Shown: in pieces, positions 23,301-64,000 of the stretch | Layout: every line of letters begins with the position of its first letter | Numbering within the stretch: position 1 is the stretch's first letter | NCBI GenBank assembly: GCA_037893245.1 | Contig: JBAIAA010000104.1 | Coordinates: 558,001 to 622,000 of the forward strand | Reading direction: 5' to 3' | Source of the DNA: Crossaster papposus | Lineage: Eukaryota > Echinodermata > Asteroidea > Velatida > Solasteridae | Length of the DNA: 64,000 nucleotides | Notes under the pieces: model-generated | What the model saw: the letters and a program-made list of their open reading frames with translations, nothing else | Told to the model about the DNA's origin: nothing | Databases searched by the model: none | Position numbers and translations under genes: made by a program

Positions 23301-26300
23301 TCAATTTATGCTTGCCAGCCGTGTTGTTATAAAGGATCTTTGACAATATAGAGACTAATTGCACAGGTATATTCTGAACAATCAAAGCTATCTGTACTGA
23401 GTGTGCTCACATATTTGCTCACCTAAATCTCCCAATTTTGAAGAAAAACAATTCACTCCCTATTTATGTTGTTTACACTGGAACAGCATGGAATTGTTGG
23501 AACAGGTCCTGGTCAACTTAACTCAACTCTCTTATTTATAATGCCTATGCCTGCACTACAAATGACAGTTGGTATTTGTTTATATGCTGGGGAAAATTCT
23601 ATTTCAAATAATCAATTGTCAGCAGTAGAAAGTCTTGAAGTATAAAATGTAGGCCTGACAATAATAATGTTATTTATGAAGTGCAAACGTTATGTACATA
23701 AAGTTTAAATGCACTGTAAAATGATAAAACCAGATTCATTAAAATATTAAAAGGCAAAAATCCATGTACATCACAAACTACTATTACATCAAGGAAAACA
23801 ACATGTTTTTAAGAAAGGAGTACAATTTTTACAACATATCAATCAAAAGCGATTTCAAAAAGGTTGGTTTTGAGCAGCCTCTATTTGAGGCCTCAATCTA
23901 TTTTCAAAACAAACCTAATCCTGGCATGTCTTTAAATTTGTGAAAACTTACTTCAAAGGAGCTATTATTGTTTTAGAATGGTACTGGTGGTAGGGGGTTT
24001 CAATAATATATATTCCCAAAAGTCACAGCAAAGGATACATTACAATTTCAAAATTTAAATATTTTGTTGTTAATTTTTAAATTTAACATTGGGATTTTCT
24101 TTTTCAGTTTTGTCTTTTAAATTATCTATGTGAGCACATATTTTTTAATTATATTCTCAATTTAATCTTTTGTTTAGTTTTATATTGAATGATTTGTAAT
24201 TATGTTGCCCTGTCTTAATCTAAATGTTTATTTTTCCATGTTGTTTGCCAAATAAACCATCAGTAATAATACATGGTTGACAATTCTTTGCCGAAAAGTA
24301 CATATTTATTTCCTTGAAAGACGGACACGGCATATTAAAGGAGTGCATATTACTTTTAGATCGAATCTGCAGATCAAATCGTAAAAAAAAGAATTACAAG
24401 GTCTCTTCCCGAAGTAAAAGCAGATTCCGTTTTTAGCCGATAGTGATGCAAACAAAGTATTTTGAATGAGGCATTTTTTTAATGGAAATATTTAAATTGT
24501 GCCCAAAACAAAACCTTTTCCAGAGGTCTACAGACGCGGTTACGAAAAGGGGAAAAGACAGAATTTGGTTGAGTGAATAAATGGCATATATACATGTACA
24601 TACAAGTTTACATTTATTCCTTGATACGTCTATTGTCCCCGTAGTGAAAGCAGGCGCAAAATAATATTGCTTCAGCCGTTCATTAGCGATGTTTCCATCC
24701 ATAGGCCGGTAACTCAACGGAATGTAACGAAGCATCACGAATGGCATAGAGTCGCTAGTCGAAGCCAGCCGAAGCCTCCCGAAGCCTCGGTGTTCCAAAA
24801 CTTTTAGGCTTGTCGCGGAGCCTCATGAAGACGAAGCCTCATAAATTGAAGCCGGAGCCGAAGCCAAAGCCGAAGCCTGGAGGTTTGGAAAAGGGCCCTA
24901 ATTTAAATGTGCCAATATATGGCACATTTAATTTAGACAATCTCAGGGGTTAAGATCGCGCATGGAAAAAAACATGGCGCAGCAAGATAATAGGCATAAC
25001 CAACTTCTCCACGTCGTATACGCGTCGTGGCGCTGACCTGTCAATGACCTATATTAGCATAACATGTCATTATTATAATATTTATGACCTTTCCCTCAAA
25101 AACTAGCGTGCAGTATGAACAATGACAAAAATCACTTTTTAAAACAGTAGAAAAGCTTTCCAATGCAAACAAACAAATTAATTCATTAGAATACATTATA
25201 TTCCTTCAAAATTCGTTCGAGAAAACAAAAATCGGAATTTTGAAAAAGCACGCGGACAAACCCACTTTAACGTATACATCTTTTTGGCCTATCGACAGGT
25301 TGCAAATCTTCGGTTTACTGGCTACCACATAGGATTTTCTGTATGGGGTAAGTTGTTCTTTTAATGCAAAGAAAATTGTTCGGTGGCACCAGCATCACAA
25401 CTCACAATTATATTGTTTATGTACGGAAATATTTTCAAGACAAAAGCTATATCTATAGGTGGTATCCAAAAATGGCGTCTAATTTTTTTCCTCGGATTAG
25501 TCTACAGGCTTCTTTGATCTTCAAGGCGTGTACGAGTTTTTAGTAGTATGAGTTTGTGGTTACATTTCCCCCTTTTTTGCAGGCTTCGTATACATTTTTG
25601 GTAGCGTTTCCCCATTTTTGCAGGCTTCGTCTTAGTTTTGGGTTGCATTTTTCCTTTTTTGCAGGCTTTTTAATCCTCCAGTTCTTGTCTTGGTTCATCG
25701 TGTTTTTTATCGTGTACTTCATCATCTATCCGCTTACCATTTCGACTGAAACGGCAGTGCTGGATTTTCTTAGCAATTACTGGTAAGTCCTCTCATAAAC
25801 GCTTAATAACGAACAAAAATACAGGGACGATACTTTAATTACTAACCATGCAGTCCTCTTCGATGATGGGATAAAAATGTCATGTTTTTAAAATGACAAA
25901 CGCCTTTTTGCCATTGACAAGATAATGTCCTTATAAGAGAAAACACATGTGCCATTTTGTTGTATAGTTGAATGGAACAATTTAGGAAAAGTATATTGTT
26001 TAGAGACTAATTTTGGTCTTGTTTTCAATTTGCAGGTTGACTTTAGTGGTTGGTTTCGTCTTGTACTATGCCCAGGTGCTCTTATCTCAGCTGGCATTCC
26101 TTCAGAGCCAAAAAGAAGACAAAAAAACAACTAGGTATTTTTGTCTGAACAACAGGTTGGTATAGATTCCAGGCGGAGGACATGGCCTAAAGTCGGTAGT
26201 GTGATTCTTACTTGTTTGCCCTCATTCACCTTTTTGATTTTGCTTTTCTGAGATGTGCTACCCTCGGCGTACGCTGTGCTGGTCTTCAATAAAGGCTCTT

Positions 26301-31774: not shown

Positions 31775-31794
31775 CCATAAGAAGATGTCGTGCT

Positions 31795-31933: not shown

Positions 31934-32070
31934 ATACCATATATACTCGCTTGGCACCACTACATTGTTCACAATGGGTGAGAATGGCGCAAAGACATGG
32001 GGGTTGCTAGCGTTAGACTTGCCCCAAATCACGTGATATAGTAACAGTCTTCCTTAGTCAGGGGTGCGTT

Positions 32071-43131: not shown

Positions 43132-46100
43132 CTAGCCAGGCTCAATCTCTTGCAAGCCCATTTCTGTCAACTCCAGCATTAGACAATACAAGCTGTTATG
43201 TCTCTTTGTCTGGCCATACTCCTTCCTAAGCTCACCAATGCTGCTGCCCAGTATGTCTGTGGTCTCATACATGTCACCTGATGCTGTCTCATGCTGCTCC
43301 CTAGATAAGCCGCTAACCTCCTAATTATGTAACAACAAAAACAGATGAGAAACATTTTGTTGAGTTGTGATTTTACTTCTGATTTAACTTATAGGGCAGG
43401 GTGACATTGAGTCAGCCAGTGAACACATAAGCAATTAACCATTCAGTACACCAGACTATAGAACCATTCAGTTTTATGAAGATGAGTCTGGAAACGAGAC
43501 AATTAAGGAGAATTGAGGAGTTCCCTGATGTCCACACTTGCCTATATTGACTTGTACTGTGATTGAATTAAGATTAACTTAATGCCTGTTGTTTTGATCT
43601 GTTTGTGACCTCAGGATCACGATACCAGTCATCTGATCATGATGAGCTTTGAATTTGCACATGCAAAGTGATAGAGAATACACAACTGGGAAAAAGTCAA
43701 AAGCAACTGACCTGTACAATGTCAGTACGTAGACCATGTCCATGTTCCATAAGTTGGCTGGCTAAATGTGGCTGTTTGGATATCAACTCAAAGTGGAGAG
43801 ATTGGGCGTGGGATCTTGAGGATTGCACAGAGATTTGAACCTGAAATAATTGGAATAAAATTAAATCACTAAAATGTTATACAACTGATGGACTGTTACT
43901 GCAACAGCGAATTGTTCACAGATTCTATACATATAGACAGGAGCAACAATTTCCTCTGGAAAATTCATTATTTAAAGTAACGGGAAAGATTTCACGTACC
44001 GTCACATGGTCAAAAAGACTGAAAGTTAATTGGCTGGTGGTGGTTGTCACGGTGATTGCATCAGCAGTTCTGGTCACTGAGCCTATAATGAGGACATAAT
44101 TGCGTCAGATTTTAACCCCAGCATGCAGTGCAGAGTTTCAATTCAATTCCAATTTTAAATTCAAGAATATTCATTTTCATCAATAGCTAGTACATTAGTC
44201 AGTACATGCAACCTTTGCATTTGTTCCACTTTAATCACAGCATAATGTCTAGCAGACTATCACCAATCTTGTGAAAATTGGACGTAGCAATACACAACAT
44301 ATCAAACTTTCAATGCGGGTACACTCTTTGGTTTCACTGACTGTATGCATAGGAAAAAGTAACTATTACAGGATGGAGATAGAAAAGAATAAATCCTGAT
44401 TGTAATTACATATAAAAACACTCAGCTTTATTTGCTTCCTTGATCTGTCATATTTTTGCATTTCTGATATTGGAAGGGGCAACAAAAATCTTCCATCCAC
44501 AATGATAAAGTCAATTCAAGGTGAGCATGTGTACAAATTTATGAGAACTCATCTGCAAAATGTCTCCCAACATCAGTCTGAAATCTTCATAATATTTTCA
44601 ATAACTAATAATAACCTGATGTCCACAACGGGTTTCCGTCGTCTGAAAGGTCACATACATGACCTTCTTTGTCCTTCAAAGACACAGCTCCCTTTATGCC
44701 GTACCTTAAATATAAGCAAAAGCAAGGAAAAGAGTTATCAAAGTTTTGATTGTCATTTTTTTAGCCATTAGTTTGCTTGTCATTCAGACTAGTCCAACAA
44801 CAGTTGATGACTGGTGCAGGTTAGAGCAAATGAAGGTATATAGGAACATTTGTTTTTTGGTGCATTTGCTTTTCAATACTTTTAAAAAAGAAAAGGTGCA
44901 CCCCATTTGGGGGTCTTCAATATTGAAGAAAAAAATCCATTAAATTCCTACAAATTACATTGATGTAAAAAAGACGACAAATTGTTACCTTGGAATGAAG
45001 ATTAGAAAGCCATTAGCCCTTAGACTGTGTACCACAGCATCCACTGTACATAACTCATCAGTTGTTGGGTCCTTGTCCTTAAAGAACAACGCCTGAAATA
45101 ATGCTTGCGAGTCCTGCTGAGCATGCTGGGAAGCCTGAAATGGACCAATCAAAATAGGGCTGAAGAAGGACCGTTAAACTGTGACATTGTCTTAAAGATT
45201 CTTGAGCAGTTTGGGAGAAAATGGACTAAAAAATTGTCACAAATCTCTAAGAGATGCCAAACTGATTCAAACTGAGCCATGGGCACGGCCATCTTGGATT
45301 TAACACTAATGACATGAAGTATGATCCGTTGCGATTCAAGTTTCTCATATTCTTTTTATACTTCTTCATAGTATCAATGTAAATAAATGTGCTGGTGCAG
45401 GAGGAATGTTGCTTGTCAGTTTAAAGACAGATCAAGAATCTATAATATAAAGACCGTAACCGCACCATCTTGGCCCATGCGTCGCGCCATCTTGGAATTA
45501 GAACCACGAAATTGTTGTATTAGAATTAGGCCATGTTGGAAAAATGAGGCAAAATGTGTTCACACAGAGCACCAGGTAGTTATATTGAAAGAAATATACT
45601 TTACCCTGTGTTTGTTATTGATGTGTCCACACAGCTCCTCTAATTCACTGTTGCTATGCAACAATGACCCATTGCCATGATCATCAGAAATGGCTGCCAT
45701 TAACAGACGATGAACCTAATTGGGGGGGAGGGGGGGGGGGGGGGGGGTGTATGAGTTCTACATTTATTACAAAAATATTGTAAATAATTTACCGTCACCT
45801 TTTTAAAAACTGTTGTCCCAAGTTTTATTTAAAATGGAACTTATTTTTGGTTGTTTCTAATACGATCATCACCTATTGTATACTTACAATAATGTCAGCA
45901 TATCTTCTGATGGGTGAGGTAAAATGTGTGTATCTGTCCAGGGCAAGACCTACAGTCAAATGTTAACATCAGATGTTATTGGCAATTCAATTTGAGGTCA
46001 TTTCTCGCAGTCTTTTCTAGACAATAGTTTGCTAATTTGTTTTTTGTTGCATTTAGTTGCATTTGCAATTGCAAACATTTGCAAATTATTTCCCCTTGAT

Positions 46101-49100
46101 AAAGGAATATGTTTTGAATGGTTACGCGTGGAGCAGGCCCTGGACATCAAGCAAGATCACGTGACTTTTGCCAAGGTTGTCAGTGGTTCACACTTCTGCA
46201 TGTTAACTTAATCTACAGTGAAATTAAAACAAATTAAAATGTTATGCTAAAAGGTTCAAAATTGAAACTAACAACAAATGGACAAGGATGATAAGGAATA
46301 CATACCATAATGAAAGAATTGATCTCTGGGCAGACTACCAGTTGAGAAGTACAACGCATTGGACATGGCCTTGGTCGCCAGTGAACGCAGGATCTTGTTG
46401 TAGATGGGATCGTTGGGGTCAACGCACTTATCTAGCGAATCGGCAAGTGCTTTGTTGGAACTAAGAGAAAATTAACAAATGAAAAAAGTCCAAAAAGACT
46501 TATAATTTAAAATGTAATATTATTGCATAGCCGCAAATCAATCAACCACAGCAAAGAATCCTAATCAAACATGCTCAAAATTATAGACATTTAAATCTTT
46601 ATAGGTTAAGGCCTTGCCTGATAAAAAACACACCAGATAGTGCGTATATAGATGTGGCTGGACACTTCCCATAGACACATGCATTACTGTCAGCCATAGC
46701 CATAATCAGCCTTACCTTGTGTCAATGGTGAAGCCTCTTAATTTGCCTTTTCACTATTCACAAGACGCCTATAGATGTGGCTGGACACTTCCCATAGACA
46801 CATGCATTACTGTCAGCCATAGCCATAATCAGCCTTACCATGTGTCAATGGTGAAGCCTCTTAATTTGCCTTTTCACTATTCACAAGACGCCTATAGATG
46901 AGGCTGAACACTTCCCATAGACACATGCGTTACTGTCAGCCATAGCCAGAATCAACCGTCCATGTGTCAATGGTGAAGCCTCTTAATTTGCCTTTTCACT
47001 ATTCACAAGACGCCTATAGATGTGGCTGGACACTTCCCATAGACACATGCATTACTGTCAGCCATAGCCATAATCAGCCTTACCTTGTGTCAATGGTGAA
47101 GCCTCTTAATTTGCCTTTTCACTATTCACAAGACGCCTATAGATGAGGCTGAACACTTCCCATAGACACATGCATTACTGTCGGCCATAGCCATAATCAG
47201 CCGTCCATGTGTCAATGGTGAAGCCTCTTAATTTGCCTTTTCACTATTCACAAGACGCCTATAGATGTGGCTGGACACTTCCCATAGACACATGCGTTAC
47301 TGTCAGCCATAGCCAAAATCAACCGTCCATGTGTCAATGGTGCATGAAGCCTCTTAATTTGCCTGTTCACTATTCACAAGACGCCTATAGATGAGGCTGA
47401 ACACTTCCCATAGACACAAGCTTTACTGTCAGCCTAAGCCAGAATCAACCGTAAGCCTCTTAATTTGCCTTTTCACTGACGCCTATAGATGAGGCTGAAC
47501 ACTTCCCATAGACACATGCGTTACTGTCAGCCATAGCCAGAATCAACCTTACCTTGTGTCAATGATGAAGCCCCTTGCCTTTGCACTATCCACCAGATCC
47601 TGGAACTGGTCCTGTCTTGGCAACGGGTGGTGCCTTAGCTGAGTAAACAATTAAACAAACCAACAACCAATCATTTCGGGTCAAAGCCTAATGTCAGTCT
47701 GGTGACTGGGCTAAATAGATCTTTGTTCCTATTAACCAGTTCGCGCCGGGATTATTTTAACATCACAGAGCCGAGGCGCTAGATTATTTTTAACGAAACT
47801 CGATCCAAGGCAAGTTCAGGCCGATAGTACCGGGAAGCACACCCACGCATTTCCAGCCTTGCTCGCTGCTGACAGACATTTCTGGCCTTGTTTGTGACGT
47901 GTTTATGCGTCATTGGTTTTGAATCTGGGAAAAACTTTGCGTGTATATACGTCCTTCGGCGCGAACTGGTTAATAAATTTAAATATGTACATGGACAGTC
48001 TTTATATTTTATATGAAGATTATTAAAATTTTCTGGCAACAGTTACAGGCCCACTTTATTTGTTGGTTCTTAAAGTGCTATCATGCTAAAATGACTTCTG
48101 CATAAGCTGAATCAGTCTTCTTTTAGTTCAAATAACACTATTTGTGGATTGAAAAATATATGTGGATAGAAAATGCAATGCTCTCATAATTATGCAGCTT
48201 GTTGCTTCTAGGGCGCATTACACAATCAATTAAAGCTCACAATTGGCACCAGTCTCAAAGTGAAGTTCCCACAAAATGAAACTATATATAGAAGCAAATA
48301 ATAAAAACGAAATCTAGGTTTTGAGGTTTAAAAAAGGTTTTAATGGTTCTAATGTTTCCTGACACTTTCTAGAAAGAATTACTTGTCTCCCCAAATTATT
48401 TAGCTTTAAGGATTATTTTGAAATACTGACCAATGCACAAATAGGGAACGTCTCTGCAATCTTCTTAGCAACCCAGTGATTGGCAAAGATCATGCATTCA
48501 GCTATGGTCTCATGGATCTCCATTGTCTGACACACAAAGTGGAACAAATATGAATATAAGGCTGTATGTATGTATGTATGTATGTATGTATGTATGTATG
48601 TATGTATGTATGTATGTATGTATGTATGTATGTATATAAACTCATCACAAAAAGTATTGAAACACTTAAAAATTAGCCAATAATTAACGGCCCGAAAGGG
48701 TATGGATTAATCGAAGCAAATCACCAAGTGCATAATTTTGTTCCGCGTATTTTGACACCTCGATTGTTGAGATACGATGTTGCGGAGCGGAGTTATTGTC
48801 ATTTCAATGGTCGTAGGTCCAATTTCAAAAGTGACAATCATCCCTAAAAGTATAGAAGCAGGTTTGCAATATTGTTTTGAATGATCAGGTTCTTCTTCTG
48901 CTTCTATAGGGATGATTGTCACTTTTAAAACTGGACCTACATGTACGACCATTGAAATGACAATAACTTCACTTCGCAACATCGTATCTCAACAATCAAG
49001 GTGTCAAAATACGCAGAACACAATTATGCCCTGGGTTATTTGCTTCGATTAATCCATACCCCTTCGGGCCGTTAGTTATTGGCTCATTTTTAAGTGTCTC

Positions 49101-52100
49101 GATACTTTTTGTGATGAGTATATATATATATATATATGGCCAGGAATAACAGGTATACCTATCCCTTATGATAGGTATACTGGTGGCTGCAGCCACGATC
49201 TAGTGTAGCCAAGTATTTGCACCTTGTGTAAATTGTGATGTGTTAAGATCAGACTCTTCATGACAATTGATTTAAACTTGTTTTTATAAACATTGTTGAA
49301 AAAAAGGGAAAAAAGGGCTCTTTACAATAACAATTAAATTGTTGTATACACTTTCTTTGGCAAAATTATGCACAATTGAAGTTGATGTCGCAAGGTGAAA
49401 ATGAAGAAATGAATTTTGGATTATACTCTATAAATCATTCAACACAAAAATTAAGATCTTAACAAAATACAAACATTTCCCCAACAACGTATCTGAAGTA
49501 CATTGTGCAGATGGCATGTACAGTTGTACACAAATTATAACTAAGTTTGTACTTGTCGTGCCCCAAACACTATGAACAAGTAACAATGGATTTGTCATTG
49601 TTTGTGTACATATTTTATAGTGACGTTACCTAATTACTGGTGACGTGTTTTTGCTTAGCAGTACGTACGTTACCTGTTTAGGAATAAGGTCCTCAATTTC
49701 CTGCTCTTCGTTGAGTTCAACTTTGACCTCCATTCCCTCCAGCTGTACTGCCCCGCCTACCACCCTCCGTGCCTTCAGGCTCCTGGCAATATCCATCAGT
49801 TTGTCAACGCACCAATGCAATTCTCCCAACCTAATGCAAAATGTTTTAAAATCTATTTAAAAATCTTTCTGTTTCAATTTGCTTCAGACTGAAGGACTTG
49901 TGACTTGGCTTCACACTAAAACTTGTGACTTAGTTTAAGACTGAATTTGTGACTTGGTTTCAGATAACCTTGACCAAGGCTATCAATTTTGTTACCTGAA
50001 CAAGCTAGCAGCCAGTCACTACCGTGCAGTTGATTTGTTTGATCCGTCTCTGCACGGCACATATCGCCAATGAGCAGCACGCTAGCCTCAAACCAGTGTT
50101 CCATACTGCATGTAGTTGAGGAGAATGATAGCCTTGATAGGTTTACTTCAGGGTTTTGTGGTCAAGTTGTTTTCGATTGCGTTATCTGATTCGCCCTCGG
50201 GTGGACGACCCAACGCTATTAAAAAACACTGAACTTGTGACTTGGCTTAAGACTGAAGAATTTGTGACTTGGCTTAAGACTGAAGAACTTGTGACTTGGC
50301 TTCAGACTGAAGAACTTGTGACTTGGCTTCAGACTGAAGAACTTGTGACTTGGCTTAAGACTGAAGAACTTGTGACTTGGCTTAAGACTGAAGAACTTGT
50401 GACTTGGCTTAAGACTGAAGAACTTGTGACTTGGCTTCAGACTGAAGAACTTGTCACTTGGCTTCAGACTGAAGAACTTGTGACTTGGCTTCAGACTGAA
50501 GAACTTGTGACTTGGCTTCAGACTGAAGAACTTGTCACTTGGCTTAAGACTGAAGAACTTGTGACTTGGCTTCAGACTGAAGAACTTGTGACTTGGCTTC
50601 AGACTGAAGAACTTGTGACTTGGCTTCAGACTGAAGAACTTGTGACTTGGCTTAAGACTGAAGAACTTGTGACTTGGCTTAAGACTGAAGAACTTGTCAC
50701 TTGGCTTCAGACTGAAGAACTTGTGACTTGGCTTCAGACTGAAGAACTTGTGACTTGGCTTAAGACTGAAGAACTTGTGACTTGGCTTAAGACTGAAGAA
50801 CTTGTGACTTGGCTTCAGACTGAAGAACTTGTGACTTGGCTTCAGACTGAAGAACTTGTGACTTGGCTTCAGACTGAAGAACTTGTGACTTGGCTTCAGA
50901 CTGAAGAACTTGTGACTTGGCTTCAGACTGAAGAACTTGTGACTTGGCTTCAGACTGAAGAACTTGTGACTTGGCTTCAGACTGAAGAACTTGTGACTTG
51001 GCTTCAGACTGAAGAACTTGTGACTTGGCTTCAGACTGAAGAACTTGTGACTTGGCTTCAGACTGAAGAACTTGTGACTTGGCTTCAGACTGAAGAACTT
51101 GTGACTTGGCTTCAGACTGAAGAACTTGGGACTTGGCTTCAGACTGAAGAACTTGTGACTTGGCTTCAGACTGAAGAACTTGTGACTTGGCTTCAGACTG
51201 AAGAACTTGTGACTTGGCTTCAGACTGAAGAACTTGTGACTTGGCTTCAGACTGAAGAACTTGTGACTTGGCTTCAGACTGAAGAACTTGTGACTTGGCT
51301 TCAGACTGAAGAACTTGTGACTTGGCTTCAGACTGAAGAACTTGTGACTTGGCTTCAGACTGAAGAACTTGTGACTTGGCTTCAGACTGAAGAACTTGTG
51401 ACTTGGCTTCAGACTGAAGAACTTGTGACTTGGCTTCAGACTGAAGAACTTGTGACTTGGCTTCAGACTGAAGAACTTGTGACTTGGCTTCAGACTGAAG
51501 AACTTGTGACTTGGCTTCAGACTGAAGAACTTGTGACTTGGCTTCAGACTGAAGAACTTGTGACTTGGCTTCAGACTGAAGAACTTGTGACTTGGCTTCA
51601 GACTGAAGAACTTGTGACTTGGCTTCAGACTGAAGAACTTGTGACTTGGCTTCAGACTGAAGAACTTGTGACTTGGCTTCAGACTGAAGAACTTGTGACT
51701 TGGCTTCAGACTGAAGAACTTGTGACTTGGCTTCAGACTGAAGAACTTGTGACTTGGCTTCAGACTGAAGAACTTGTGAATGACTTGCAACTGCAACTGA
51801 CGAGGCGTAAACTCACCGGTTTTCTACTTCGTCCTCGTTCATTCCTGCCAATTCCGGTATATCTTGCCTCACATCTTTCCCATCATGCAATGCTTGTGCA
51901 GCCTGAATACAAAAAATGTAATCAGTTTCACTCGGTACAGCTTTAAATCACCATACATAACATTCACTACAACCATAACAGCCTTTAATTAAAAAAAGAG
52001 AAAAAAGACCCTTCAAATTTGAATTATCAAGAAATGCGTTATTATAAGTGAGATACTGTAGTGTACTGCTACAGCGTGACTTATCTTGATAACACATCAA

Positions 52101-55100
52101 ATTCCATTTACCGACTTCTTTTACATAATTCTAATTGTCTTTTTATTTATCCCGTCCACCCATCTGCATTTTTAATTGTTTTATTATGCCAGTATTTGGT
52201 CCGTGTACATGTATGCGTTTGTGATCTGTGTTGTGATGGGTTGGAGTGACACGCCTTTTTTGATGACAGAGTTTTATTCACTTTTAGTTTTCTCTTTGGC
52301 TGTCGAGTTATTCTTGTTCTTTTAATTAAATTTATACTTTTGGTGTAGAATGTCTGCATAAAGTAATAATAATAGCTAAATTAGGCCAAATTTACACTTC
52401 GTAATATGGAGTTTGAGAGGAGTCTTCAATACAAAAACCTCACAACACTCGCAATAACCCATGTGTTTGATGCTCGGAAGCATTTTTCTCTAAAAGTGGC
52501 ACACACTCGATTTTAAGTGCAAGTGGTTAATCAAACATATATATCTTTGAAATGACAAACGCAAATAGGGTAAAACAAACAACATTTGAAAGCTTATTGA
52601 AATATCTTGCAGCTCGTACAAACAACATTAAATGCTAAATATCTAATGAGAAAAACAACACGTTCCACTTGCACCATTATTATTATTATTCTGGTTTATT
52701 CGTATTAAAACACGAGGTAGGCAGCCACAGAAGAGTAGCTGAAGTGACCACGTTTACACTTTACAAGAATTAAAAATTGTTACATAGCAGTTAAAAAGAA
52801 TGGAAGTATAAAATTACACAAAGTACTCACTTGCACCTATATTGTAAACAATTAAGAATTACAAAAGTTTAGCTAAAACAGGAATTGTGGACTTCATGTA
52901 TCTATCAGTTTTGGACTACCATGGGGGACACGATGTAGAATCTATTACATAATACCTGTTTATGTAGAGTCCATCATGTTATAATTGCTGCACATGATTC
53001 TCAATAACATTTCTAGAACAAACAATACAAACCAATGACAGACCTCATAGAACATCTTGTGTGAGGATCTGATGACTGTGCGGCCGTACCAGACTTGACT
53101 GACTTCATAAGTCTGAGGATCCAGTTGCCACAAAACGCTCACTGCGTAACGATCCACTCCACCAATCAGAGAGCAAAGATCTGCGCTCAGAATTGCAGGC
53201 AGCATGTCATAGCGTCGGTCGGCAAGATACACAGTTGTTGATCTGTGAGTTAACAGAAAAATGCAGAAAGTAAAACTCTCTTTTGATAAAGGTTTCTTTG
53301 TAAAATTTGTTCAGTAAACTTACTGATTGCCCACAAATTTTGTAAATATTGTTGTATTTATAACATTTCCCTCAAAGATGCTAAATTTTTGAAACAATAA
53401 AATATTAATCTACCTAATTTTCTACACTATTTAGACCTAAAATTTTAAGTAGATATCTTGACAAAGTGCATTTTTCAAGTGCAAAAAAACCAAACATTAG
53501 AAATCTGTCTGAATCTGTCAGGATTATTCGGGATGTTTAAACTATTAGTGTACACTGTACATGCTCTGCATGTACCACATCTCTTACAGAACAGTGCCAG
53601 AATAATACATTTATTAGGATCGTCTTAAATAAAAAGGCAAATAACAATCACTTTATAGTCAAAGATGGTGGAGTGTCGTGGCCGAGCGGTTAAGAGCTCG
53701 GTTTTCTGTTCTGCAGAGCGTGAGTTCGAGTCCCGGTGTCGACACGTGTGTCCTTAAGCAAGGCAATTAAACCACCATTGCTTTGTCCTTCGGATGGGAC
53801 GTAAAGTTGTAGGTCCCGTGTGTTGTATAATTTATAATGTGTGTATATATCTTTCCCATTATAAAAAAAATTGTATAATGCACGTAAAAGAACCCAGAAC
53901 ATTTATCGCTAAGAGAAGGGGTTTGCCCCGGTGTTCCTGGCTGACACAGCCTCTGTTTACGGGGTTTTTCTGGCTTACGAGCTACAGTGCCTTGAGCGCT
54001 TTTGAAGGATCCTTGGTTTCATTACCAGAAAATAATAATAATAATAATAATAACAAGTTTTACCTCTGTTTGGCCTCCAGATCTGTGAGTGAATTGGGTT
54101 GGACAAAGTAGGAGACATCAGCAATGTGAACTCCTAGTTCCAACAGCTTACCATTCTTCAACTTCCTATCACAAAAAAACAATTAACAGCTACTAGTTCC
54201 CAGTTAGTTTGTAAGTTAAGTATGAATTATTATCATAACTCTTATTTTAATAACTATAATAGGAAAAAATTGGCAGTTCATTCACTTATTTCCATATTAA
54301 ACTCGGTTCCATGTCAAAAACTAATTAACAAATGTAATTAAGTGTAAGCGACGGCACAACCATTTTGCTTGACCACCTATCCTATCATAAGGACAAAATA
54401 TCATCGACTGTATACTGCGTCTTCCATCTATCACAGTATCTGTCCTACCTTATGGACAATGTATCTACATGTACTGTATACTGTATCTTCGATCTATCAC
54501 GGTATCTGTCCTACCTTATGGACAACGTATCATCTACTTTTTACTGTGTCTTTCAAATATCACGGTATCTGTCCTATCTTATGGACAACGCATCATCTAC
54601 TGTATACTGTGTCTTCCATCTATCACAGTGTCTGTCCTACCTTATGGACAACGTATCATCTACATCTTCACATCCTTTGGGATCAATACTGAAGACAAGA
54701 TGTGTCTTGCGGAGGTCCCGTCGCTGCAATATTTCCCCTTCCCCTGTTTTCCAGGGATTTTCTTCAGAATTGGTTGGTAATTCTTTCACCTCAAATAAAA
54801 ATGTCCATTGAATTTTTATTTGTTATTACAATTAGCTAATTAGTGCCCCTGGAAGTATATTTAATAGCTACCGGTATGCTACATCGCAGAAAAACAATTG
54901 CTAATAAAAGATCAGTTTCTGGTGTTGCAAGGCAAATTCAGAGAATTCATAATCTGAGAAAAACCTGCGAATTAAAGGTAACAGTAAAAGAAGTAGAAAT
55001 ATTCCACAAATGGTTCTCAAACAATGACGAAATCATGATAATAGACCTTATACACATGACGACAGAGTTATATAGAGAGCAATGGTTTTGTATTCTATGA

Positions 55101-58100
55101 GTAAACTATTTCTGCATTCATTGTTAATAAATTAGTTGAAACTAATAAAAACACACCCTCTATGAGACATTCGCAACATAAAAGGAAGACCTTAGATCAG
55201 AATAACAAAAAATGCTTCCTTGTGCCCCTCACCTAGATAAACATACATTTGTTTGACTGAGACTCAAACAGCAAAATAATAACTAACTTGATAGAGTAAT
55301 GGACCACAAACTCATGTGTACACAGGGCCATCATCACAAGGCCACTAGAAGTCATTCACAAGTTTGTTGAAACTCCAGTCACAAGTAAATAACAAACATG
55401 TCTGGCCACAATTAAATTACAAGTTCTTTCACAAGTAATTATAAATGGGTCAGATCATTCTACCAACTTTAAACACGGTTTTGTTATGTCCAGAACTTGT
55501 GGTGAGGCATTTCAGTACCTCTGCATATCACACAAGCTTAAAGTTAGGTACTCTTACCTGAAATACAAGTCAGTAGCTACATGTATAAACAATTTAACAT
55601 TGTGTACCCTAGCATGACACTTGTTACATTGAAACATATCCCTTGTAATTCAAATACATTATGGTTCCATTTAGTTGTCAGGTAGTAGTATGCAGAAGTT
55701 TGTACAATAAATCCTGCAATGCGACAACAAGATGAAAACAAGACACTGTTCTTGATAATTAAAGCTTTTTTTTGATGAAATGCATGTAATTTAAAATGTC
55801 ATACTTTGTGTCCCAACCTCATGGAATGACCCAAATTATAAGTCCTTTTACAGCCAGATAACTGGGGATGGACTTGAAAACCAGATAACTGGGGATGGAC
55901 TTGAAAACCAGATAACTGGGGATGGACTTGAAAACCAGATAACTGGGGATGGACTTGAAAACCAGATAACTGGGGATGGACTTGTGGATATTGACTCCAC
56001 TGTAACACATACCTGACCCTCGGAGAATGCCCCAGCAGAGACGCTGTTCTCAACCAAGATGGCAGCTATCTGTGTTTCCAGGCTGTCCATTGGCCCAAGT
56101 GACCGCACAAAATGACCGTTGGGATACAGGGAGTCTATTTCCCAGGAGTCAATACGCACAATAATTCTGTCAAAAATAACCAACGATAAGGAGCAGTATA
56201 GATATTATTTGCAACATTTTATATCTAAGGTTGGTAAACTCTCTCAAACCTTGAAAAGAATCACCTAATATTAATTATTAATTAATAACCTGTGATCTCG
56301 GAGCGCCTGTGCTTGTCTAGTGCTGATGCGTATCTTGGGTATACGGTAATCCCACGGAATGACCAGGACCTTGCCTGCTCCAGAACCTTGACTCTGAGAA
56401 AATAAAAAACAACAGATGTCAACAAATTCTCAACTGTTTCTATAATAAGCTGGCATGTGAATCATCAATGTCTTGAGTTACAAATTAAGAGTTGTAATTA
56501 ATATTTTAAAATTTGTATGAAAAATGCATGACAAACCATAACTCAGTCCACATCACTAGCCGCTCACAGTGGGTATAATTAGGAAATAACAGGGTGAGTA
56601 CCCGGTCATTACTGCGTGATAATTGACCGGGTTGGGCGATGACCAATGGTAATAGACCGAGCCGAAGGCGAGGTCTATTACCAGCGGTCATCGCCCAACC
56701 CGGTCAATTATCACGCAGTAATGACCGGGTACTCACCCTGTTATTTCCTTTAATAAATACCTTTTGTTTTAGGGAAAAAACAGTGAATTTTTGAAAGCCC
56801 GGTCAATTACTGCGTGGTAATGCCCTCCACGTGATCGAGTCTCGACCAATCAGAAGCTTTGAACTCTCCTAGGTATTTATTAATCACCAATAACAAAGTG
56901 CCTGATAATAAATATACATTTTAATGACACCACAGAGAGAGTATATATACTTGCCTCTTGTTCTTCAGGAAAGCTAGCTACATAATCCCTCCAATGTCTT
57001 TGTAACACACCCACAATGCGTCCAGTAGGCTTTATGCTGCTCTGATCTATATCGGATATATCTGCTGGATCACCTACAAGTAGACCAATCACAAATTCAA
57101 CAAATGACTGCATTTCTGTCCTATTACATGCATTACCATGCATCTGTGGCCAAATCATAAATTATGTTAAATCAAGCATCAACTAAGCTTCAAGTCAATT
57201 GCAAATCATTTTACAGGCTAAACCTTATCACAAGTCAATTACAAGCCTTATCACATGTCAATTACAAGCCACATCACAAGTCAATTACAAGCCACATCAC
57301 AAGTCAATTACAAGCCACATCACAAGTCAATTACAAGCCACATCACAAGTCAATTACAAGCCACATCACAAGTCAATTACAAGCCACATCACAAGTCAAT
57401 TACAAGCCACATCACAAGTCAATTACAAGCCACATCACAAGTCAATTACAAGCCACATCACAAGTCAATTACAAGCCACATCACAAGCCCTGTTGCAAGT
57501 AACATTTCAGGAATACTGACAGTAGAATTTAATTTGAAACTGGAAGACTTGGGACTGTGTCTTGTGACTGACTCGATTATAACTCTGCCTATTACAACTT
57601 CGGGTGGTCTATCACCAAAGGGAAACGTACCAGTTGAAGATAAAGAATTGATTTTGCCGATCCACTGTGACCTGGGGAGCAATTCAACAGCAACTTGGTC
57701 CCCATGAATGGCACGATTCCTATATTTAAAAGAAGGTTTTTGGTAATAGAACTAAATAATTATTTCCTTCTTTGTCTCATTGGCCAATACTATCAGAGTT
57801 GCACTCTTGTCTATGAGTACATTTTAATTGATTTCAAAGGCTACACAATCGTCTAATTTAGCATATTACAATACATCAACAGCCCACAACTAGATATATG
57901 TCACAAGTCAGTCTATAGGTCAGTCTATCGGTCAGTCAGTCAGTCAGTCAGTCAGTCGGTCGGTTAATCGGTAAGTCTATCGGTCAGTTGGTCGGTCGGT
58001 CAGTAAGGCAGTCGGGTAAAAATGCAGAATAAAGGCTGGCTTTTTAGGACGTATAAGGTTTATTGTTAATTACCTGTTTTTCATTCCAGCTATCAAGATG

Positions 58101-61100
58101 TCTGAATCCAAAGTGATCCCTTTATTACTGCTTCTTTTGGTGAGAAAATAAAATATAAACAAATAAACAAAGTTAAATCCATTAGTTCCTGTATCCAAAC
58201 TTATCTGCCTGTTACACCTAATGCTTCAAAAAGCCGTCCTCAATAGTTGTATGCAATAATTGGGAATAAATATATTGTAATACAATGTATTCATAAATAC
58301 CTTAGACAGTTTACCTATTCCTATTGGCCGAAAGCCCACCACATGGGCAGTTTTAAAATGGTTGATAAAACAAGGGCGTCACATACAATTTAGACGGTCA
58401 TGAAATGTAGTCCCTTCACTCTTTTATTGGTTGAAACCTCAAAAGGCATGCCCAATACTACAAACGAGTCCATATTTCACAGTCCTTAGTTTACACTGCA
58501 GCGGCAGCTTTCAATCTGCATACTATTACGCAGTAATGGCCATATTAGGAGTTGTTTACGTGTGGAACATACCATGAACGTAGCTAGATAGGGGTGTTTC
58601 ACAAAATATGAAAGTATAATTGTTCAACAAAATTGTTAAAATTTATACCAATTTGTTTTAAATATATATAACTAACATGTTTTACCGAAAGGTATGAATG
58701 GGAATAAATACATGTATGTGGTTGGCCTTTATTGGCTTGAGCATTGACATGAGTAACTATTGCTTTCTAATTTGCCTCTCTGCCAAGTCTATGTCCAGAT
58801 ATATTATTGGCTACTTGTGAAGGTAGAGGCCAGATTGAGAGGATCTCGAGCTGATGATGCAGATGGCTTGATGAACAGGGGTAATAAGTCTGAAGTGCCA
58901 TGAGACACTGTGATGGTTGTCGGTCTAGTGGTTAGGGTGCAAGAGAGGGGCTCAAATCCAACTAGGGTTATAATACAACTGGAGACCTATGATGGACTAC
59001 ATTCAAAGAAAAAAAGTGGTAAAAACCAACCTTGCATATTGGAAACCCTGACCCATAGGGTGTGTGGACACTTGTATTTAAATTAATTATTTCACCATAC
59101 GTGTTAGTGTTATTTATGTAAACCTTACAGTCCTTTTGCAATGAATGCCTCATTCTGTGCATGATATTTGTTGACTCGCAACATCCCTTCAATGTACAGT
59201 CCTGACTTGATGCCTGCTGCTAGAACATCACTCAGTAGATACTCAGTGTACTCCTTGCAACCACCTGAACCATTGGACAGAAAAAAACCATAAGTATCAT
59301 AGAAATATTGGTTTCTAAGAAAGTAGCAGTAGATTTGTTCCACTAATAAGCCCCATCCCATGTCCAATTCTTTGTCCAATCACTGCATAGATTAATGAAG
59401 AACATGTGTGCACAAAAGTTTGACATGTGTGCGTGTACATTTGATGCACACAGCTGGAATTGGTAGAGTCCACTAGGAGAGACATTTGCACTGCTGAAAG
59501 ATGTATATGTTGCTCACGAGAAGATATGGCTTTTACAAGTCGTGCATTCTTTAAACTACATTGTATGCGTGTGAACCAGTAGCTATAGTAGTGTATGGCA
59601 CATGTATGTCCCCCACTGGAGCTTGAAAAAGGCATTGTCACTTGTTGGCACATATTATTAGACTCACTCTCGTCTAACCAAACAACTGACTAGAGTACAG
59701 TCAACTTTTAGGACCAGCCATCTGATGTTGGTTGCGTCACTAGTAATCGTACGTCATAACACCGAATATTATTTTATGCCGACTGGCTACCAAAAGTGAC
59801 ACGCCTTTTTTGGCGACTGTATTTTATTTACTTTTACATGTAGTTTCCTCCTTGGCAGCCCTTCACTGTTCTTGTCCTGTCGTGTTATTCTTGTTCTTTT
59901 AATTGTTTGTATAGTTTTGCTTTATATTGTTATCTGTATGTGTGTAAAATGCCTGAATAAAGTAATAATGATAAAATAAATAATAAACTCATAAGCTTTC
60001 CCTGATGTTATTTTGCCCACGTTAAACAGTAAACTAACATTTCTAAACAATACATATTTCAAAAGATAAACATGTAGTGAGAAATGGGTGCGACATCTTT
60101 ATAGCATTTAGCACTTGCCTGCATAATTTGGCATAATAATTAGTATATGTTATAAAAATGCTGTTAAAACCAAAATGAGATGACGGTGTACCTTTTTTTT
60201 TGTCTTTGGTATCTGCCAACGACGCAGAAAGCGATTCATAGATATCATGAGCCTGAGTCAGATTAGGCCAAAACAACTCCAGATACTGATGAATATTCAT
60301 CACATGGACACCAAGGGTATTACTTGCATATTTGTCTATGGCCTAAAGAAAAAAAGAAAAAAACCAAAGTTGAATATTACTAATGTGTTAAAGGACAGAT
60401 AAATGATTTCCATGCTCACATAAGTCTTGTTTTCAAATGCCTTGGGACATTTTTTATTTGCACCTAATTATGCTCATCTGCAAGAAGGCTTCTATTTTAA
60501 CATTTCATTTAAATGGCAAAATATTTGACTGTGTTGACATCATGTACAAGCACAGGTTTGCGTGCATGCTCTCAGTAGGAGCCCAACCCCCCAAAAACTA
60601 GACGTAAGTCCATCGTAAGTCCATCGCAAGTCACAAGTCTAGTCATGCAACAAAGAATTGCCTTTACAGCTGCCTCTGTAACAGTGAAAGTGAATTTCTT
60701 GTCACTTGAGACTGAATGAAATCACGAACAGACTTGACTTAGAATCGGTCACAATTTCACATTACCACATAAAGTGGATTCATTGTGGGTATAAATATTA
60801 GCAAGTTCACACAATTGGTGGCCGTTGATAAATTCTTACTCACATGTTTACCCTGTGTTAAAAACACAATGGGTTTCTGCCCAACAAGGTGACGGTAATA
60901 CCACACAGCACTGTCATACACAACCCTAGAAGCAAAGACAAAAAATACACTATTAAATCAAAATACAACTCCAAGTCCCTTCGGTTATTAATTAAACATG
61001 GGAAAGGACTGTGTGTTGGTACTGATGATAGACCATTTTTTTAAGCCCTACTCCATGTTTTTGACCAATCAAAGTTGTGACTGTGGAAATGAGTAATGCA

Positions 61101-64000
61101 TTGTGCTCAGAGCAGTGCTGTACGTGCTCAGAGCAGTGGATGAATCCACTTATATATTTGACCTCTCATTCATTATGCACGCAATGTCACACACGCATGC
61201 AAATGCCACAGAGATCTGCTCAAAATTGTTGGCCTTATAGAGGGCGCCCGCATCAATGATCTTTGAGCGTTGCATCGCATATATGGCTGCTAGTACATCT
61301 TGCAACCAAGGTATATGGGGTAGTGCATGGTAAATGAATCAGTCTACTCACAAACTACCTACTCACGAAATAAGCCAGTCTTCAAGGCATAGGGCAGCGG
61401 TAAATGGATCAGTCTACTCACAAACTACCTGACAAGCCAGTCACCAAGGCATAGGGCAGCGGTAAATAAATTAGTCTACTCACAAACTACCTGACAAGCC
61501 AGTCACCAAGGCATAGGGCAGCGGTAAATGGATCAGTCTACTCACAAACTACCTGACAAGCCAGTCACCAAGGCATAGGGCAGCGGTAAATAAATTAGTC
61601 TACTCACAAACTACCTGACAAACCAGTCTCCAAGGCATAGGGCAGCGGTAAATGGATCAGTCTACTCACAAACTACCTGACAAGCCAGTCACCAAGGCAT
61701 AGGGCAGCGGTAAATGGATCAGTCTACTCACAAACTACCTGACAAGCCAGTCACCAAGGCATAAGGCAGCGGTAAATGGATCAGTCTACTCACAAACTAC
61801 CTGACAAGCCAGTCTCCAAGGCATAGGGCAGCGGTATATGGATCAGTCTACTCACAAACTACCTGACAAGCCAGTCTCCAAGGCATAGGGCAGCGGTAAA
61901 TGGATCAGTCTACTCACAAACTACCTGACAAGCCAGTCACCAAGGCATAGGGCAGCGGTATATGGATCAGTCTACTCACAAACTACCTGACAAGCCAGTC
62001 TCCAAGGCATAGGGCAGCAGTAAATGGATCAGTCTACTCACAAACTACCTGACAAGCCAGTCTCCAAGGCATGGGGTCGTGCTGAATAGATCAGTCTACT
62101 CACAAATTACCTGATGACAAGCCAGTCTCCAAGGCATGGGGCAGCGGTAAATGGATCAGTCTACTCACAAACTACCTGACAAGCCAGTCTCCAAGGCATA
62201 GGGCAGCGGTATATGGATCAGTCTACTCACAAACTACCTGACAAGCCAGTCTCCAAGGCATGGGGTCGTGCTGAATAGATCAGTCTACTCACAAATTACC
62301 TGATGACAAGCCAGTCTCCAAGGCATGGGGCAGCAGTGAATCAGTCTACTAACAAACTACCTGACATGTCAGTCACCAAGGCATAGGGCAGTGGTGAAAA
62401 GATCAGTCTACTCACAAACTACCTGACAAGCCAGTCACCATTACTTTCGCCGGGGTGTCTGGCACTGTAGGCAGAACGGCAAAACTCGTTGGCAAAAAAC
62501 TTGCAGTGGTTCCGACTGTCTCTGACCTTTATCTGTACGCGTTGGTGAAAACGGCGTCCTTTCTCATGCAACACCTGCAACAAAAATTTCAAATTAAAAT
62601 TAACAAAACCTGACTTTGTAAACTGAAGAAAAAAACAAACAAAACACGAGAATGAAAATATAAAACAGAAAAATACAATAAGTTTATATATAAATTAATT
62701 CTTCAAATTTTTAACACAGAAAATATATATATTATGTACAACCTATTTGCTCGTTCTCTGCATTTCTCAAACTAATCTCTGAACAGCTGTGATCTGATCA
62801 CAGTATAGTCTTGTTTGCAAGACAATCTTCGCGATTCGGGCGCCATCTAATGTACGCCGTAGACCACGCGCGCAATGACGTTCGCTAAGACAGTCTTGTT
62901 TATCTGCTCTAATCGCTTCAAAAATTCCGAGCAGAATTGTTTCGCATTTGCATGCGCGTGTGACATCGCGTGAAGTAACTTGCACAAACGCTGACTCACT
63001 GGTATAGTTTCTGTACGTCGCAGCGACGTGTGGACATAGTATAAAAAAGACCATGTGAGCGCGTCGCGAGCGTTGTTGTTTAGTAAAAAAATGTCGGACC
63101 GAGTGGATGAAGCAATCGATGTTACAGCAAAGTTGCCCCTGGGCCCGGCTTTGCCGAAGCCCTAATACCGTCTGTTCGCGACCAGGCGCGGCATCAATAA
63201 TCGTCCACGTATTCCGTACGTTTGATTGCCGCGATGTACATGTATGTACATGTATACGTACATAGGTACATCGCGCGCACGGTACCTAACTAGCAAGCTC
63301 ATATCTAAAACACGAACTTCCTTTAGTGCGCAAGTGTCATTATGCTTTTGACCTCTCTGTTGAATTATGTATAGAGGTTACGCGCTGCGATTAGAGCAGT
63401 TAAACATGGTTATGTTATCGAAGGTCATTGCATGTATAGTACGGCGTACGTTAAATGACGCCTGCATTGGCGGCCTACGCGCGCTGCATACCGCGATTAA
63501 GATCGTCTTGCAAACAAGACTAATCACAGTACCATAATGTAGGTATGTGCAGAAACCACACATGCCAGCTTAATTCACACACATACGTGCGCTTGAAAAT
63601 GCACAGGTTTGCGAACACGTCAAAAGCTGCTCTAATCCGGATCATTTTCTGCCCGGCTGACATAGGCCCAAAGTACGAGGTATGTTCGACCATTTCTCAC
63701 AATTTTTGTGTGTGTAAACAGTTTGGTTGTTATCATGCCTTTCATGCACAAACTCATTCCTCCCGCAAAGCAGACGAGGTAGCATTAAACTACATACACA
63801 TTGTAATAACAAATGAACAATGGGGTTCACAATCGTTGAATTGTTTTGTTTAAATCACAACATTTTTAGCGACTGAATCTCTTCAAACTTACATGATGAA
63901 GCACCGTCTGCATAAAGATGATTCCTTGTAACTCTGGCAACTCCAAAACTTCAAGGAAATCGCTGGTCACATGACAGTCAGGAATGAGATAATGTGTCAC
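43132..64000 (-). CDS. DIS3L: DIS3-like exonuclease 1 (partial, N-terminus off window)
   Basis: Twenty-five exons join in phase: 63893-64000 (continues right), 62423-62574, 60844-60925, 60192-60342, 59129-59264, 58074-58133, 57631-57719, 56955-57073, 56290-56393, 56013-56166, 54641-54789, 54064-54165, 53044-53242, 51817-51902, 49674-49830, 48431-48526, 47553-47638, 46306-46460, 45888-45949, 45605-45715, 44989-45134, 44616-44704, 44000-44082, 43712-43840, 43132-43320 (TAG). This gives 997 residues; about 57 N-terminal residues are missing versus human. DIS3L is the cytoplasmic exosome's processive 3'-5' exoribonuclease. Order: PIN-like region (about 1-160), cold-shock domains, RNB (about 413-760), S1 (about 790-930). 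The RNB has [12 protein letters not shown] with all four catalytic Asp (421, 427, 429, 430) and [16 protein letters not shown], so it should be active. The PIN region keeps little of the DIS3 acidic site, as in vertebrate DIS3L. Intron 8 uses a GC donor. Introns are loaded with minisatellites. Confidence 0.96.
45721..45748. repeat. G-tract; poly-C polypyrimidine tract of a DIS3L 3' splice site
   Basis: Runs of 7 and about 18 G end 6 bp from the acceptor of exon 45605-45715. In the transcript this makes an almost pure C polypyrimidine tract before aattag. Length may be uncertain in the assembly. Confidence 0.75.
46650..47552. repeat. Minisatellite of about 122 bp spanning the 5' splice site of DIS3L exon 47553-47638
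   Basis: Seven further copies of the junction follow the authentic one on the minus strand. In gene orientation each unit begins with a diverged copy of the exon end (gcaaaggc...ggcttcaycattgacacaag) and continues into the same intron start (gtaaggctgatt). The GTAAGG donor is intact in copies near 47092, 46837 and 46713 and lost (tggacgg or deleted) in the others. Confidence 0.88.
47731..47974. mobile_element. MITE of 244 bp with 18-bp TIRs, DIS3L intron
   Basis: Perfect inverted ends attaaccagttcgcgccg at 47731-47748 and 47957-47974. The interior matches two copies inside TIPIN introns (36716, 37574). TTAA-like ends are compatible with TTAA target choice, but the duplication cannot be fixed from one copy. 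Confidence 0.8.
48565..48633 (+). repeat. (GTAT)n microsatellite
   Basis: About 17 tandem gtat units in the intron downstream of DIS3L exon 49674-49830, immediately before a foldback element. Confidence 0.9.
48637..49121. mobile_element. Foldback MITE with arms of about 225 bp
   Basis: The arms 48637-48861 and 48897-49121 are reverse complements with scattered differences. The outer ends read actcatcacaaaaagta and its complement, with TA-rich flanks ((gtat)n left, (at)n right). The loop is about 35 bp. No coding capacity. A TA-target family is plausible. Confidence 0.8.
49150..49183. repeat. Short palindrome
   Basis: aggtatacctatc / gataggtatact arms around cctta form a tight stem-loop next to the foldback element. 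Significance unknown. Confidence 0.5.
50229..51778. repeat. 27-bp minisatellite, about 57 copies, DIS3L intron
   Basis: Unit gacttggcttcagactgaag plus aacttgt, near-perfect over 1.5 kb. The left part mixes cttaag and cttcag variants; the right part is homogeneous. A few degenerate units lie at 49883-49962. The unit length is a multiple of three with no stop, so artificial ORFs of about 500 codons run through it on both strands. It lies wholly in the intron between exons 51817-51902 and 49674-49830. Confidence 0.95.
52246..52372 (+). repeat. Retroelement-like 3' tail, copy 1
   Basis: Starts gtgacacgcctttttt and ends with aataaagtaataataat. It is homologous to 59797-59975, sharing also gttattcttgttcttttaat. 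The A/T-rich terminal repeat suggests the 3' end of a non-LTR element or SINE. Confidence 0.6.
53667..54057 (+). mobile_element. tRNA-derived SINE adjacent to a DIS3L donor site
   Basis: The head (53674-53745) looks like a tRNA: A-box tggccgagcggtt, B-box gagttcgagtccc, and acceptor stem gtgtcg / cgacac. The body has ccttaagcaaggca, cttcggatgggacgtaaa and gcacgtaaaagaaccc, typical of widespread invertebrate SINE bodies. It ends in (aat)n. It is antisense to DIS3L; its tail stops about 10 bp from the donor of exon 54064-54165. Confidence 0.85.
54365..54640. repeat. 64-bp minisatellite spanning the 5' splice site of DIS3L exon 54641-54789
   Basis: On the minus strand the exon end gatgatacgttgtccataag|gtaggacag is followed by four more copies spaced 63-65 bp (junctions near 54577, 54514, 54449, 54386). 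Two copies keep GTAGG donors; two carry ATAGG. The duplicated exon piece encodes the VDDTLSI part of the RNB active site. Confidence 0.9.
55850..55986. repeat. 28-bp minisatellite, five copies
   Basis: Unit ccagataactggggatgg acttgaaaa repeated nearly perfectly, ending about 27 bp inside the intron downstream of DIS3L exon 56013-56166. The unit does not include the splice site itself. Confidence 0.92.
56581..56749. repeat. Near-perfect palindrome, arms about 78 bp
   Basis: The left arm from aggaaataacagggtgag and the right arm ending ctcaccctgttatttcct are reverse complements almost throughout, with a loop of about 13 bp (gagccgaaggcga). It lies in a DIS3L intron and directly abuts a second inverted-repeat segment. 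Confidence 0.85.
56749..56886. mobile_element. Small inverted-repeat element next to palindrome
   Basis: Ends ttaataaatacct (56750) and aggtatttattaa (56870-56882) are inverted. The interior carries ccggtcaattactgcgtggta, a variant of the palindrome arm. Possibly the palindrome and this segment are nested copies of one MITE family. Confidence 0.6.
56949..56954 (-). other. GC-type 5' splice site of a DIS3L intron
   Basis: Exon 56955-57073 must end after codon GAG to join exon 56290-56393 in phase (EEQE then SQGSG). The junction is GAG|GCAAGT, the usual consensus of GC-AG introns; no GT donor nearby keeps phase and homology. Confidence 0.85.
57228..57490. repeat. 23-bp minisatellite, about 11 copies
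   Basis: Unit caagtcaattacaagccaca plus tca, near-perfect, between DIS3L exons 57631-57719 and 56955-57073. Short ORFs in three frames through it are artefacts of periodicity. Confidence 0.93.
57905..58020 (+). repeat. Degenerate (GTCA/GTCG)n tract
   Basis: Repeated cagt/cggt tetramers including gtcagtcagtcagtcagtcg, in a DIS3L intron about 55 bp from the donor of exon 58074-58133. Confidence 0.75.
59797..59975 (+). repeat. Retroelement-like 3' tail, copy 2
   Basis: Longer relative of 52246-52372 with the same start gtgacacgcctttttt and tail gcctgaataaagtaataatg. In a DIS3L intron. Confidence 0.6.
61330..62422. repeat. 62-bp minisatellite spanning the 5' splice site of DIS3L exon 62423-62574
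   Basis: About 17 full units follow the authentic junction. In gene orientation each contains ggtgactggcttgtcag|gtagtttgtgag, meaning the last 16-18 exon bases plus the donor, then a shared filler. The array fills the start of the intron for 1.1 kb. In-frame read-through past the true donor meets TAG at once (LVR then stop). Confidence 0.93.
62795..63533. mobile_element. TIR element in the first visible DIS3L intron
   Basis: Inverted ends share agtcttgtttgcaagac (62807-62823 and its complement near 63504-63520), extending imperfectly to tgatcacag-type termini and inward to acgtacgccgta-like blocks. About 740 bp, no transposase ORF. Short ORFs inside are not gene-like. Confidence 0.7.

Follow-up and report, generated by a model that had tools for sequence, protein, structure and literature searches.

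Probable mirage minisatellites across exon-intron boundaries of a DIS3L-like gene in the asteroid Crossaster papposus

We analyzed a 64,000-nt stretch of the Crossaster papposus genome (GenBank assembly GCA_037893245.1, contig JBAIAA010000104.1, positions 558,001 to 622,000 of the forward strand), referred to below as the window. Its minus strand carries a DIS3L-like gene in which intron 2 opens with a tandem array of 18 near-identical 5′ splice sites, the subject of this report. The gene and the elements around intron 2 are as follows.

44000..64000, minus strand: DIS3L-like gene, 23 exons in the window; the N-terminus lies past the window edge and the 3′ end outside the model.
62423..62574, minus strand: exon 2, 152 nt, ending ...ESNGDWLV plus AG (phase-2 end), from the gene model and ungapped alignment.
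62417..62422, minus strand: predicted true 5′ splice site of intron 2, the first six intron bases of CAG|GTAGTT; frame kept as LVR|VVYDS.
61305..62440, minus strand: probable mirage minisatellite of intron 2, 62-bp unit with 17 decoy donors; lower limit set by eye to include the distal partial unit.
60844..60925, minus strand: exon 3, acceptor TTCTAG|GG, from the gene model.

Exons were located by tblastn with a human DIS3L query, which matched them in order, and their boundaries were then curated. Read from 64000 to 44000, the 23-exon model gives an uninterrupted 892-aa reading with GT-AG at 21 of the 22 introns; the exception is a single GC donor at 56954 (minus strand, exon 8), where intron 8 is GC-AG with GAG|GCAAGT. 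A Pfam search of the protein returned RNB (2.8e-91) and Dis3-type cold-shock domains, and the best PDB match was DIS3-like exonuclease 1 (9g8n; 1138.7 bits), with query residues 1-892 colinear to residues 57-954 of the chain; RRP44/DIS3 (507 bits) and DIS3L2 (319 bits) ranked far lower. These results bear out the DIS3L identity proposed in an earlier note on this DNA, made from the letters alone. That note also placed exon 2 in the PIN region, which agrees with the colinearity and with a weak PDB hit, 6md3 (E 6.3e-05), in which residues 5-106 align to a chain called Rrp44p homologue, whereas Pfam reports no PIN domain for the protein. The alignment to DIS3-like exonuclease 1 has no gaps at LVR|VVYDS, SIR|KLK, and DTS|SNK, the three junctions at which arrays are described here, and the 892-aa model holds no inserted coding segment at any of them.

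Tandem Repeats Finder (TRF) reports the intron-2 array at 61372-62440, with a period of 62, 17.2 copies, 90% matches, and a score of 1720. The unit comprises the last 18 exon bases and the donor within 44 intron bases. On the minus strand, exon 2 ends ...AATGGTGACTGGCTTGTCAG|GTAGTTTGTGAGTAGACTGATC, and the exon-derived 18 nt (TGGTGACTGGCTTGTCAG) with the next 22 intron bases are matched exactly in the best copy. An anchored search recovered 18 donor copies: the predicted true donor lies at 62422, and the decoys, 17 in number, run from 62360 down to 61358. Neighboring copies are generally separated by 62 nt; two steps measure 61 and 65 nt, and the last 70 nt. AG and GT are both retained in all 17 decoys, which read CAG|GTAGTT (14/17), CAG|GTAATT (2/17), or TAG|GTAGTT (1/17). 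Run into the intron, the exon-2 frame reads ...DWLVR*, with the stop TAG starting 1 nt after the junction. Since the unbroken 892-aa reading is colinear with DIS3-like exonuclease 1, full-length protein results from splicing at the first, exon-proximal donor, and homology and reading frame together predict 62422 as the true junction. The earlier note had expected about 17 extra units of roughly 62 bp bearing the exon end and donor, a TAG directly behind the true junction, and full-length protein from the exon-proximal donor alone, all of which hold. Its range of 61330-62574 takes in the array together with exon 2 (62423-62574), the array itself spanning about 61305-62440. Donor and acceptor score matrices were built from the 23 and 22 sites of this gene alone, which makes the scores rough; on the donor matrix every decoy scores at least as high as the true donor, except for the last (5.0). 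A GTGAGT lying 7 nt beyond the true donor was considered as the real donor and rejected, as it scores just 2.6 and would bring an in-frame TAG into the mRNA.

Two further donors of the gene are repeated in the same manner.

54641..54789, minus strand: exon 11, 149 nt, ending ATAAG|GTAGGA, from the model and alignment.
54377..54663, minus strand: second probable mirage, intron 11, ~63-bp unit including 23 exon nt; TRF core 54380-54663, lower limit set by eye.
47553..47638, minus strand: exon 17, 86 nt, ending ACAAG|GTAAGG, from the model and alignment.
46647..47592, minus strand: third probable mirage, intron 17, 123-bp unit with ~40 nt of exon 17; TRF core 46647-47453.

A boundary scan aligned the 22 donors and 22 acceptors, with 40 nt per side, to the interior of their own intron and to the 21 other introns. 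Three of the 22 donors proved to be duplicated in tandem into their own intron (introns 2, 11, and 17, with scores of 96, 106, and 112), while the remaining 19 reached at most 24 and no donor segment exceeded 29 against a foreign intron. For the intron-2 boundary, the score of 96 in its own intron compares with no more than 22 in any of the 21 others, so the match to the array is not due to chance. On the acceptor side, the scan found arrays at none of the 22 boundaries of the gene (own-intron scores of at most 23; top score against another intron, 36). At all three array junctions, which are in phase 2, the frame continued into the intron ends at a stop codon that starts 1 nt beyond the junction. 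The intron-11 array holds four decoys, two of which keep AG|GT (54514 and 54448) and two of which have lost GT. The intron-17 array has diverged, its TRF core ending 99 nt short of the donor and its extension resting on homology; of its seven decoys, three keep GT, two of them as AG|GT (47083 and 46715), and four have lost it. Together, the three arrays retain AG|GT in 21 of 28 decoys (17/17, 2/4, and 2/7).

A comparable repeat lies at the other kind of boundary in a second gene.

25563..25668, plus strand: three-step 3′ splice-site ladder, 41 bp × 2.6; decoy exon starts at 25583 and 25624, presumed true start at 25665.
25665..25782, plus strand: STRA6-like exon downstream of the ladder, followed by GTAAGT.

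The 41-bp unit holds TTTTTGCAG|GCTT, and its 2.6 copies present three acceptors scoring 10.8, 7.4, and 10.6 on the DIS3L-like acceptor matrix. Alone, the exon gives a weak Pfam match to RBP_receptor (E 0.12, below the cut-off), and a paralogous exon at 1845-1711 (minus strand) is 51% identical to it (E 9e-11); no ladder was seen by eye at the acceptor of that paralog. The STRA6-like pieces in the window come from two genes, at 272-1845 (minus strand) and 25665-27685 (plus strand), with a third fragment at 31752-32036 (plus strand) that falls below the Pfam cut-off. The intron-2 array, confirmed here and earlier described as a single one, is accordingly accompanied by others, with three donor mirages in one gene and one acceptor ladder in a second.

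The DIS3L-like gene also contains 27-bp arrays inside its introns. One at 50231-51779 (57.4 copies, 98% match) occupies most of intron 14, begins 37 nt from the donor, and by its repetition leaves both strands open over hundreds of codons. The other, at 55854-55984 (4.9 copies, 100% match), begins 28 nt past the exon 10 donor and does not include it. Six arrays of the gene, with a TRF score of at least 100 and a period of at least 20, were placed at random, with exon sequence overlapped by no more than 45 nt, and at least three donor overlaps arose with P 0.005 (post hoc). As the test was devised after the data had been seen, donor targeting is a lead and not a result; targeting of arrays to exon-intron boundaries is weakly supported. 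A polarity toward intron 5′ ends (mean relative position of 0.099 for the six arrays, P 6.5e-05, with the intron-17 array set at 0 after homology extension and at 0.347 for its TRF core alone) is not claimed, because the figure is post hoc, counts the three boundary arrays, and drops small rows near 3′ ends, and because the STRA6-like array sits at a 3′ end. The three non-boundary arrays alone give a 5′-end bias of P 0.035; the smaller TRF rows left out include two at relative position 0.966, close to 3′ ends (48563-48635 and 49896-49962), and a further two at 0.243 and 0.448.

We regard the intron-2 array as very probably a mirage-type minisatellite, that is, a tandem unit lying across a real exon-intron junction and carried as passive baggage, not a device. 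We infer a founding duplication whose segment reached from 18 nt before the end of exon 2 to ~50 nt into intron 2, its endpoints probably lying at TGGT microhomologies; the array would later have expanded into the intron via unequal exchange or slippage while the exon-side copy stayed the working junction. TGGT is common to the exon-side left edge and the intron-side right edge of the homology, and the inner array junction CCTTGGTGACTGG is the product expected of a duplication between these edges. Among breakpoint pairs drawn at random from this gene with its arrays, 50 to 80 nt apart, 2.6% share microhomology of at least 4 nt, and the TGGT is thus suggestive only. Turnover is visible as a three-unit period (lag-3 identity of 0.928, permutation P 0.0006). 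Among the 18 units, the least alike are 18, 17, and 2, followed by the inner units 3 and 6, which are copies of each other, with unit 1 ranking sixth; four of the six least-alike units are end units.

Splicing could plausibly cope with such an array. Exon definition would favor the upstream of equal donors, so that the array is tolerated, and occasional use of a decoy would lead into an immediate in-frame stop and send the message to nonsense-mediated decay (NMD). No special device appears to be needed, given moderate exon lengths (152, 149, and 86 nt) between introns of at least 475 nt (flanking exons 2, 11, and 17, respectively, 1318/1497, 1223/475, and 792/1092 nt). In minigenes with two 5′ sites of identical strength and introns of 365 nt, the upstream site was preferred (PMC9225289), and amphioxus mirages reportedly leave regular splicing undisturbed (PMC3087553; PMC3902484).

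Several points weigh against this account. With both donors of the minigenes weakened, skipping predominated in the larger exon constructs, and the upstream preference persisted only in the smaller ones (PMC9225289). On the gene's own matrix, two intron-2 decoys reach 10.4 where the true donor scores 8.5, and masking of the decoys by RNA structure was rejected, the unpaired probability of the true donor (0.0002) lying inside the decoy range of 0 to 0.027. Counted as overlaps with either boundary, at least three arise in the random placement with P 0.049 (also post hoc). Lastly, none of the 17 intron-2 decoys has lost AG or GT and positions −3 to +22 are nearly invariant, which could mean constraint on the donors. 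In-register diversity over the 17 decoys is 0.037 at −3 to −1, 0.035 at +1 to +6, and 0.042 at +7 to +22; the 0.273 at −18 to −4 is inflated by two kinds of insertion. A gapped alignment gives 0.069 at −18 to −4 and 0.127 at +23 to +44, and shows −3 to −1 as diverse (0.175) because the aligner places TCA and 8-nt insertions there. Because the quiet stretch continues well beyond the donor, the units share recent common ancestry, and donors have been lost in the sibling arrays, we read the low diversity as homogenization, though constraint could also produce it. The loss of GT in two of four intron-11 and four of seven intron-17 decoys fits neutrality and argues against a selected function.

Other accounts of the intron-2 array were weighed against that of a passive mirage. 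It is possible, if unlikely, that errors at decoys are fixed by a second splicing event, or that the array is removed stepwise via zero-length exons, with the same mRNA always resulting. Each unit runs GT...AG, so a retained run of units is a formal intron, and a review states that a tandem AGGT duplication can be precisely spliced out (PMC3443670); the full retention of AG|GT and the near-invariant junction columns in intron 2 are as such a process would have them. On the gene's own acceptor matrix, the AGs of the units score 2.4 to 6.1, which places them at the 87th to 97th percentile among 1032 intronic AGs that include the decoys, and the top one equals the median of real acceptors (6.1). 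Yet the polypyrimidine stretch, judged by eye, has G/A interruptions, and it is weak since coding sequence makes up the end of the unit. The sole clear branch-point-like motif (CTGAT/CTAAT, by eye against the consensus) lies ~20 nt from the donor, so that one 62-nt unit would be a poor intron and two or more would be required. The Drosophila exon junction complex, moreover, inhibits regenerated recursive sites and resplicing (PMC8184009), and AG|GT survives in just two of four and two of seven decoys in introns 11 and 17. If true, splice transparency of AG|GT arrays would account both for the tolerance and build-up of mirages in the genome and for the presence of AG|GT in every intron-2 decoy.

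We give little credence to the view that decoys are retained for sending part of the DIS3L transcripts to NMD, with array length tuning an RNA-decay enzyme. Any decoy, once used, would bring an immediate stop into the message, and decoy strengths that equal or surpass the true donor, the last excepted, would suit such a role; many donors are nevertheless lost in both sibling arrays, and exon definition predicts little use of decoys. Least probable in our judgment is an array inflated or collapsed by the assembler, as might be feared from amphioxus PGBD5, whose copy numbers vary by genome version (2 versus 7 and 3 versus 6; PMC3902484). Arrays at three different boundaries of one gene make this improbable, and the distinct variants of individual intron-2 units, together with their three-unit period, speak against simple assembly stutter.

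Mirage minisatellites were reportedly described by Canestro et al. in 2002 in amphioxus Adh3. Ebner et al. (2010) named minisatellite-like duplications of intron-exon boundaries in the globins BflGb6 and BflGb9 after them; the duplications occur at 5′ as well as 3′ boundaries, AG/GT is kept in many units, units at cluster boundaries are excluded from homogenization, and reverse transcription-PCR suggests regular splicing (PMC3087553). In lancelet PGBD5 and troponin C, 60- and 108-bp repeats lie on or overlap 5′ and 3′ splice sites, and aberrant mRNAs are reportedly not generated by the Adh and troponin C mirages (PMC3902484). The likeness to amphioxus mirages suggested in the earlier note is upheld: the DIS3L-like units span genuine boundaries in introns 2, 11, and 17, AG/GT is kept in many of them (21/28), and in intron 2 alone unit turnover with divergent end units is seen, inner units 3 and 6 being divergent too. 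Judged from one sequence, the arrays thus appear to share those defining features of amphioxus mirages that can be read from it. They differ in copy number, with 17 additional donors in intron 2 as opposed to 6 and 3 repeat units in two BflGb6 haplotypes (PMC3087553), and in that, unlike the BflGb6, BflGb9, and Adh3 cases, the gene, known here from one sequence, has three arrays. The PGBD5 repeats are called imperfect, unlike other mirages (PMC3902484); the intron-2 units have a 90% TRF match. While the mirage phenomenon is already known, the size (17 decoys) and the density (three donors of one gene and one acceptor of a second) are unusual. No published genome-wide mirage survey was among the matches listed, subscription literature falling mostly outside that scope, and the excerpted text of an amphioxus huntingtin paper (PMC2206037) is uninformative on mirages.

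Other systems offer partial parallels. As in the Rogers model of intron gain, duplication of an AG|GT segment creates new potential donor/acceptor pairs (PMC3443670); unlike in that model, the duplication here enlarges an existing intron, and an inserted coding segment is not seen at the junctions. Recursive-splicing ratchet points likewise juxtapose an acceptor and a donor inside an intron (PMC8605326), whereas intron 2 has a weak polypyrimidine tract and is just 1.5 kb long; its units carry AG|GT, with acceptor scores of 2.4 to 6.1 beside a median of 6.1 for real acceptors. The partial exons with splice sites inside introns of amphioxus VCBP3 may be related (PMC2632668).

Eighteen near-equal natural donors with a stop after the true one constitute a ready experiment on spliceosome choice among equals, for which array-length alleles would supply a dose series. 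The occurrence within 64 kb of three DIS3L-like mirages and a STRA6-like 3′ one suggests a genome in which mirages are common, and such abundance would bear on intron growth and the birth of new splice sites. With 18 coding bases in the unit, array turnover could also pass changes into the last codons of exon 2.

Across the 64-kb window, no known RNA family reached its gathering score. Apart from the STRA6-like genes, the window holds a TIPIN-like gene with a TIPIN-type Swi3 match (E 9.7e-29), whose acidic C-terminal open frame contains a coding minisatellite at 38155-38681 (plus strand; TRF units of 129/144 bp, or 43/48 codons). Between the TIPIN-like and DIS3L-like genes, an AT-rich array with a ~69-bp unit extends over 39799-40863.

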